Part shown: in pieces, positions 29,637-38,931 of the stretch | Layout of the letters: each line of letters begins with the position of its first letter | Numbering within the stretch: the stretch's first letter is position 1 | IMG/VR virus record: IMGVR_UViG_3300012920_000060 | Span: 1 to 50,514 of that record | DNA: 50,514 bases | Strand: one strand, 5' to 3' | Source: a virus | Translations under genes and position numbers: made by a program | The notes under the pieces: model-generated | What the model was told of the DNA's origin: nothing | The model's database searches: none | What the model saw: the letters and a program-made list of their open reading frames with translations, nothing else

Positions 29637-29897
29637 ATGGCAGAAGAAGTGAATAACGCTGAACCAGTTCAACCAGAACCAGTTCAACTATCACTGCAGG
29701 ATATTGCAACTTGTGTACAAATTGTCGACTTATGTTCGAAGAGAGGTTCTTTTGAAGGACCTGAACTAGAAGTTGTCGGTGGTTTACGTACAAGGTTAGT
29801 AAATTTTGTACAGGCTAATCAGCCTGCTGAAGAACCTGCAGCCGAAGGTCAAGTACCTGAAGTTGAAGCTGAGCCTGTTGAAGAAGACAGCAAGTAA
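29637..29897 (+). CDS. Conserved small acidic protein of unknown function
   Basis: 86 residues. A conserved core, SLQDIATCVQIVDLCSKRGSF followed by EGPELEVVGGLRTRLVNFV (residues about 18-56), is flanked by Pro/Glu/Val-rich, probably disordered ends. Homologues seem common in marine T4-like phages, but no function is known to me. It has a late promoter and lies between clamp and clamp-loader genes, unlike T4, where 45 and 44 are adjacent. Confidence 0.6.
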   Translation: MAEEVNNAEPVQPEPVQLSLQDIATCVQIVDLCSKRGSFEGPELEVVGGLRTRLVNFVQANQPAEEPAAEGQVPEVEAEPVEEDSK

Positions 29898-31938: not shown

Positions 31939-31946
31939 TATAAATA
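31939..31946 (+). promoter_or_regulatory. T4-type late promoter TATAAATA of hsp20
   Basis: An exact TATAAATA; the start is expected near 31952, directly before the first leader hairpin, giving a leader of about 62 nt that consists of the two stem-loops and the ribosome site. Confidence 0.75.
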
Positions 31947-31954
31947 ATAGTTGA

Positions 31955-32005
31955 GAAATGCCGCATTGGGCGGGTTTCCACATAACCTTGCTATTTAATA
32001 GGAGG
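31955..32005 (+). promoter_or_regulatory. ROSE-like RNA thermometer candidate in the hsp20 leader
   Basis: Hairpin 1 (31955-31978): GAAAT pairs with GTTTC and CCGC with GCGG, with a bulged G and the loop ATTGG. Hairpin 2 (31986-32005): CCTT-G-CTAT, loop TTA, ATAG-GAGG. It pairs all of the AGGAGG ribosome site and leaves one bulged G in TTGCT. A TTGCT strand with a bulged G opposite the ribosome site is the defining feature of ROSE thermometers, which control small heat-shock genes in proteobacteria, including many alphaproteobacteria. Here it lies before a small heat-shock gene. Temperature response is inferred. Confidence 0.6.
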
Positions 32006-32013
32006 AAAATAAA

Positions 32014-32469
32014 ATGGTAAGAAATACTTTGAACGTTCCACGTTCACTATTCGTAGGCTTTGAGCCTTTATTAGACGAGCTAGAGAGAATTCACTCTGCT
32101 GGTAAATCAACCGAAAATAACTATCCACCTCACAATGTTGTGAAGATTGACGAGGAGAAGTTCTTGATAGAAATGGCTTTGGCCGGTTTCAAACAAGAAG
32201 ACATCTCGGTCGAGGTCAAGGACGGGATATTAAAGGTTAAAGGTGAAATGCCTAAAGACGAACGGGAATTTGCTTATAAAGGTATATCGTCCCGCAAATT
32301 TGAGAAGAGCTTCCGCCTCTCAGAATTTGTCGTAATAGACGGTGCTGACCTTCAGGATGGAATACTCGTGGTGTATGCCAGAGTTGAACTCCCAGAAGAG
32401 AAGCGTCCTAGGAAGATCAAAATAGGGTCTGCTGGGGCATCAACGAAGAAACAATTCCTTAAGGGGTAA
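32014..32469 (+). CDS. hsp20: Small heat-shock protein Hsp20 (IbpA-like)
   Basis: 151 residues with an alpha-crystallin domain: YPPHNVVKIDEEKFLIEMALAGF (in parts), DISVEVKDGILKVKG, FAYKGISSRKFEKSFRLSEF and ADLQDGILVVYARVELPEE. A C-terminal I-K-I provides the I-x-I motif that docks neighbouring subunits. sHsps hold unfolding proteins; marine T4-like phages often carry one, perhaps to help virion assembly. It is expressed from a late promoter with a thermosensor-like leader. Its codons (CGT, GTC, GAG, CTC) are richer in G+C than neighbours, suggesting later acquisition or strong expression. Confidence 0.95.
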   Translation: MVRNTLNVPRSLFVGFEPLLDELERIHSAGKSTENNYPPHNVVKIDEEKFLIEMALAGFKQEDISVEVKDGILKVKGEMPKDEREFAYKGISSRKFEKSFRLSEFVVIDGADLQDGILVVYARVELPEEKRPRKIKIGSAGASTKKQFLKG

Positions 32470-38855: not shown

Positions 38856-38931
38856 GGGGCTGTAGCTCAGTTGGGAGAGCGCTTGGTTTGCATCCAGGAG
38901 GTCGTAGGTTCGAACCCTATCAGCTCCACCA
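38856..38931 (+). tRNA. tRNA-Ala (anticodon UGC)
   Basis: A 76-nt cloverleaf: acceptor GGGGCTG with CAGCTCC (one G-T pair), D arm GCTC...GAGC, anticodon arm CTTGG-TTTGCAT-CCAGG with anticodon TGC, T arm GTAGG-TTCGAAC-CCTAT, and an encoded CCA. It is the only tRNA seen in the window and lies between mazG and the dCMP deaminase gene, in the same direction. GCA/GCT alanine codons are common in these genes. Confidence 0.97.

Follow-up and report, generated by a model that had tools for sequence, protein, structure and literature searches.

A two-hairpin ROSE-type leader in front of a phage hsp20 gene and its relatives

Our analyses showed that the hsp20 gene of the window, by which we mean the whole 50.5-kb viral contig studied here, follows a leader with two predicted hairpins, the second of which pairs the complete Shine–Dalgarno (SD) sequence. 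By features and homology, this leader is a short ROSE element of the Pseudomonas type, accompanying class A hsp20 genes in phages. We consider it likely, with a probability of roughly 80%, that it is homologous to the two-hairpin ROSE leaders that proteobacteria have on hsp20 genes of class A (ibpA), that it is carried together with hsp20 and that temperature opens it. ROSE elements as a kind are known; what appears to be new is their near-universal pairing with phage hsp20. Our searches of the open-access literature turned up neither a phage ROSE element nor a thermometer of any kind attached to a phage hsp20, consistent with the sequence-only reading of this DNA, to which a ROSE element in T4-like phages was not known. 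Nor did the literature searched yield an account of how phages control hsp20, which belongs to the core genes shared by the full set of 16 T4-like cyanophages in a 2010 comparison (PMC3037559).

The element covers 75 bases of the plus strand (31939–32013). A T4-type late promoter box, TATAAATA, stands at its start (31939–31946, plus strand), and the hsp20 ATG at 32014 follows right after its end. The gene (32014–32469, plus strand) encodes a class A (IbpA-like) small heat-shock protein of 151 aa (PF00011, E 3.4e-16). It is flanked by regA and the gene of gp43 DNA polymerase, for which the nearest records are those of phage C48C1 (51% identity) and of cyanophages. The box would set the mRNA start just 5' of hairpin I. 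By itself its occurrence is poor support for a promoter, with 17 copies observed in the window and 11 expected; it is found, however, before all 54 distinct leaders of close relatives that reach far enough, and several structural-type genes of the window lie directly downstream of TATAAATA. A ROSE-type element is absent behind the other late promoters of the window. We hence rejected a role of the motif as a leader of late genes in general in this phage: it occurs once in the window and is specific for hsp20. The window also holds a tRNA gene at 38856–38928 (Rfam RF00005, 66.7 bits).

Folded without coding sequence, the leader has the two hairpins as its predicted minimum, placed between the predicted late start and the ATG as the sequence-only reading had described. 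Hairpin I (31955–31978, plus strand; GAAA-U-[G]-CCGC / GCGG-G-UUUC) comprises an outer stem GAAA/UUUC, a U.G pair, the bulged G31960, an inner stem CCGC/GCGG and the loop AUUGG, and is backed by the RNAalifold consensus, by changes on both sides of its pairs and by the layout of the Rfam model ROSE_3. Hairpin II (31986–32005, plus strand), the SD-sequestering stem-loop and putative thermosensor, reads CCUU-[G31990]-CUAU / AUAGGAGG with a UUA loop; folding, RNAalifold and covariation of the pair N1:SD6 point to it. Its 5' side is the anti-SD strand CCUU-[G31990]-CUA (31986–31993, plus strand), which contains the ROSE motif UUGCU conserved before hsp20. All bases of the SD AGGAGG (32000–32005, plus strand) are paired in this fold, and the earlier claim that the entire SD pairs around a bulged G within TTGCT was thus confirmed. 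The combination CCTTGCT-N(2-14)-AGGAGG occurred a single time in the window, compared with 0.01 expected from shuffles. We also considered the fourU class, which is defined by four consecutive U against the SD, and rejected it, as the anti-SD reads CCUUGCUA. The features of ROSE elements, i.e., U(U/C)GCU with a bulged G opposite the SD, a small heat-shock gene 5'UTR and an upstream hairpin, are all present.

Relatives were searched with single Hsp20 proteins as queries. The close-relative set comprised 80 related viral loci, with 54 distinct leaders reaching far enough for comparison. CUUGCU and the SD were retained in all 54, and unguided RNAalifold recovered both hairpins from them. The covariation score amounted to 0.369, compared with 0.139 in shuffles (0/500) and at most 0.117 when the pairing was slid. 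In hairpin I, both sides had changed at seven of the nine pairs. Hairpin II is nearly invariant among the close relatives and hence owes its covariation mainly to one compensated pair, seen in locus L029, where AGGAGG became AGGAGA and the anti-SD C became U (UCUUGCU). The initial reading had named a lack of compensatory changes in relatives as the finding that would speak against it; such changes are there, at most pairs of hairpin I and at one of the SD helix. In a wider leader set both sides had changed at 13 of 16 pairs, although this alignment was fitted to the model and leans towards structure. The leader architecture, which all 54 distinct close relatives preserve, is not a product of chance.

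A scan against Rfam, which had been proposed as a check, gave a divided answer. For the window leader itself the ROSE models yielded no match even at E ≤ 10, the ROSE_3 cut-off of 43 bits remaining out of reach, and other families, e.g., freshwater-2 and SAM-III, appeared as sub-threshold chance matches only. Homologous phage hsp20 leaders, however, were matched by ROSE_3 (RF02523), above the gathering cut-off for L331 (44.1 bits) and below it for L231 (39.9), L099 (34.8) and L084 (Melnitz; 34.1 bits). These alignments extend over the two hairpins and include the G that bulges from hairpin I, and in the whole phage genomes matched by ROSE_3 the top match was the hsp20 leader. Phage leaders and ROSE_3 have in common the hairpin II layout and a hairpin I with a Y-[G]-C bulge, although most phage leaders score under the cut-off. 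The link of the window leader to ROSE therefore rests on homology and on shared features, of which the motif with its bulged G opposite the SD, the upstream hairpin and the hsp20 context support the ROSE-like assignment made initially.

We also built a covariance model, R1, from the window's phage group alone. R1 had one match in the whole window (4e-22), and it found the leaders of Melnitz (3e-9), L331 (2.6e-6) and C48C1 (1.5e-5) as well as many SAR11 chromosomal leaders (down to 1.6e-8). R1 thereby ties the window leader to L331, the leader that exceeds the ROSE_3 cut-off. In nearly all matched whole phage records the best match was the hsp20 leader; the exception was Atu_ph07. The extra matches in this phage, at 333027 and 224479, were discarded: one lies before a hypothetical gene, the other is antisense to its neighbours, and the one that was read showed no recognisable UYGCU/SD core.

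Beyond the close relatives, we compared 197 distinct leaders, five from bacterial-genome contigs and about 98% from phages, and U(U/C)GCU-loop-AGGAG preceded hsp20 in 189 of them. Among SD-bearing ORF starts used as controls, it was present in 6 of 641. Being related, the sequences do not count independently of one another, and relatedness inflates these counts. Four of the six control matches were hsp20 leaders themselves or belonged to L221 and L230. These two loci were at first taken as exceptions, but here the ROSE element heads a two-gene unit (L221:1200–1962, L230:1190–1977), in which the motif is followed by an ORF of 71–79 aa, phasin-like by eye, and then by hsp20 with a plain SD of its own. 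Of the named phages, 19 of 20 have the motif before hsp20, and the leader is present in C48C1, HTVC115P, Melnitz-3, Atu_ph07, P-SSM4 and S-CRM01. It was found in 13 of 14 further named phages, including P-TIM40, S-RIM8, S-ShM2, S-T4, S-PM2, P-HM1, S-SSM7 and HTVC104P. In Pseudomonas phage Paride the motif reads UUGCG and hairpin I is similar, and L218, L222, L225 and L247 have ACGCT where others have TYGCT. Hairpin I in the form YGC/GG with at least six further pairs was seen in 155 of 203 leaders but in 0.7% of shuffles. Many cyanophage leaders (L399–L412, L086, L087) have a UUCG-capped hairpin I (GCC-UUCG-GGG) and mostly a UCGCU core.

Over all leaders, the closing pair N1:SD6 beside the motif is C-G in 53, A-U in 46 and U-A in 43 cases. 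It is coupled to the core: leaders with UUGCU form the pair in 145 cases and leave it unpaired in 16, whereas among those with UCGCU it is absent in 40 and present in 2. Correspondingly, the energy spread of hairpin II was 1.52, compared with 2.26 when the core base was shuffled among leaders (0/300). A weaker UUGCU core with the closing pair, a stronger UCGCU core without it and the narrow energy spread look like conserved stability, with counts that relatedness inflates.

Among known systems, the short ROSE-like leader of Pseudomonas ibpA is closest to that of the window, as both consist of two hairpins only, about 62 nt, conserve hairpin I, place U(U/C)GCU across from the SD within hairpin II and precede an hsp20 of the IbpA class (PMC3669281). 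In Pseudomonas, experiments established this two-hairpin form as a thermometer, in which melting affects hairpin II but not hairpin I (PMC3669281); for the window leader, a temperature response is suggested by this likeness. In contrast to its Pseudomonas counterpart, the window leader is phage-borne, AT-rich and located behind a phage late promoter, and the start codon may be a second target of its anti-SD. Bradyrhizobium ROSE1 and E. coli ibpA share with it U(U/C)GCU, the SD occlusion and the hsp20 gene, but have three to four hairpins (PMC3669281). The known phage thermometers, lambda cIII and the fourU of SPbeta blyA, are likewise temperature-responsive leaders in phage genomes, with architectures and genes that differ from those of the window; a paper of 2023 counted only one earlier phage RNA thermometer (PMC10586365).

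Chromosomal hsp20 leaders of SAR11 (Pelagibacteraceae; L337–L366) have two hairpins as in the window, and most share its AACCTTGCTA...AGGAGG. The motif was present in 26 of 26 parsed SAR11 leaders and in 27 of 27 from other proteobacteria, a set limited to genomes with an Hsp20 resembling that used as query. A full-text literature search returned no title on an RNA thermometer in Pelagibacter. Unlike the window leader, these SAR11 leaders are bacterial, and in the tree the proteins of SAR11 do not form the sister group of the window Hsp20. A direct SAR11 origin of the window gene thus finds no support, its sister being the Hsp20 of phage C48C1 (98/92). The closing pair is A-U in C48C1 and C-G in the window, a compensatory difference between the two sister groups. 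The phage proteins L318 and L321 do nest among those of SAR11 (99/92), and each of their genes has the leader. Previous work showed that cyanophage small heat-shock proteins group with bacterial class A, unlike those of their cyanobacterial hosts (PMC3827213). In the simplest reading, hsp20 and its ROSE leader travel together between genomes. A further hsp20 locus, L336, carries a ROSE leader along with a late promoter box of phage type and has a tRNA close by. It was assigned to a "Bacteroidetes" genome bin; it probably is a misplaced phage contig, and its Hsp20 groups with phages.

How might the leader work? Late in infection, the mRNA would start at hairpin I and thus carry a stable 5' hairpin, which might guard the 5' end or the fold. 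Hairpin II would pair the entire SD with the UUGCU strand around the bulged G, and with the SD hidden in this way little Hsp20 would be made. Warming would loosen hairpin II at its core of non-canonical U.G and bulged G. The freed SD would then allow translation of Hsp20, which could protect phage or host proteins. For the window leader, the predicted opening of the SD was shallow from 10 to 50 °C (melting in silico was tried over 10–60 °C). Motif-carrying hsp20 leaders of proteobacteria gave profiles just as shallow, so that such melting has no diagnostic value. Nor is it evident what a phage would gain from a thermometer, since marine hosts experience small temperature swings. A ROSE leader would couple the late-phase chaperone supply of a phage to temperature or proteostasis, and if present on virtually all phage hsp20 genes, ROSE leaders could rank among the most numerous RNA thermometers of the sea. 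The leader would also be a case of a cis-regulatory RNA that accompanies its gene on transfers between bacteria and phages, and it offers a testable handle on possible effects of warming on infection.

Alternatively, the leader might chiefly serve autoregulation, a reading we take seriously without expecting it to prevail. Phage Hsp20 would bind the leader and repress its own translation until it is drawn onto aggregates, so that protein damage more than heat would be sensed. In E. coli, IbpA acts as a repressor of the ROSE-bearing mRNA that encodes it, for which R93 and an aromatic residue at Y34 are required (PMC10474464). The window Hsp20 retains the equivalents, Arg in KGISSRKF and Tyr in YPP, and in distinct phage Hsp20s the R93 position is Arg in 175 and Lys in 48, the Y34 position aromatic in 224 of 224. 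However, such residues are common in class A small heat-shock proteins, with positive charges at this position even in human ones, and their conservation is therefore not specific to self-repression; IbpA K98, moreover, is not retained in the window Hsp20. Hairpin I is conserved tightly around its bulged G, beyond the needs of a simple 5' clamp, which fits a protein ligand, although leader binding by phage Hsp20 is putative, by analogy with IbpA. As the repression residues are kept and a pairing of the anti-SD with the start codon is possible (see below), protein feedback deserves serious consideration, in place of the thermometer or on top of it. It is compatible with thermometer action, and temperature sensing and Hsp20 feedback may act together. 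The roughly 48 distinct phage Hsp20s with Lys at the Arg93 position, seemingly mostly of the C48C1 group (L082, L088–L167), provide a natural test case for a loss of feedback. We may tentatively speculate further that phages of many unrelated hosts inherit class A hsp20 packaged with its ROSE leader, whose two bulged-G hairpins would be recognised by phage Hsp20 in addition to responding to temperature. As a protein-damage sensor, this package would time the late chaperone supply even in cyanobacterial hosts with small heat-shock proteins of a different class.

A second alternative, which we regard as unlikely, concerns the window's phage group, in which the UUGCU strand might cover the start codon and codons 2–3 (AAAUGGUAAG) instead of the SD, or both pairings might compete. 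When 17–30 nt of coding sequence were added, the predicted minimum of the window leader had the anti-SD paired with AUGGUAAG. This possible pairing of CUUGCUAUUU (31987–31996) with AAAUGGUAAG (about 32012–32021; overall 31987–32021, plus strand) is predicted to occlude the AUG and to free the SD. The duplex amounts to −10.0 kcal/mol in the window and to −6 or lower in 86% of the window's phage group. It is disrupted, however, in the ATGGTTAG members of this same group (L035, L057), and it may simply stem from the Met-Val-Arg codons; in addition, nearest-neighbour energies perhaps model the ROSE core poorly. Strong start-codon pairing is confined to the window's group and rare in other phage leaders, whereas SD pairing is kept everywhere. 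We hence rejected it as a conserved structure of phages at large and return to SD occlusion as the preferred reading.

That the hairpins merely protect the mRNA 5' end and fix a low, constant translation rate seems very improbable: hairpin I does lie at the predicted 5' end, and stabilisation by 5' hairpins was discussed for Pseudomonas ibpA (PMC3669281), but the other late promoters of the window lack such an element, hairpin II is nearly exclusive to hsp20, and very distant phages and bacteria retain U(U/C)GCU as well as the bulged G.

One related locus, L034, contains a copy-like second element (L034:707–771; R1 E 2.8e-5) in front of a gene for 84 aa, which is flanked by those of the sliding clamp and the clamp loader. 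The homologous gene of the window, starting near 29637, has a late promoter without a hairpin. In L034, the second element features a ROSE-type hairpin I (GGAGATGCCGGATGGTCCGGGTCTCT) and a degenerate anti-SD (CTACTTGCAAGGAG).
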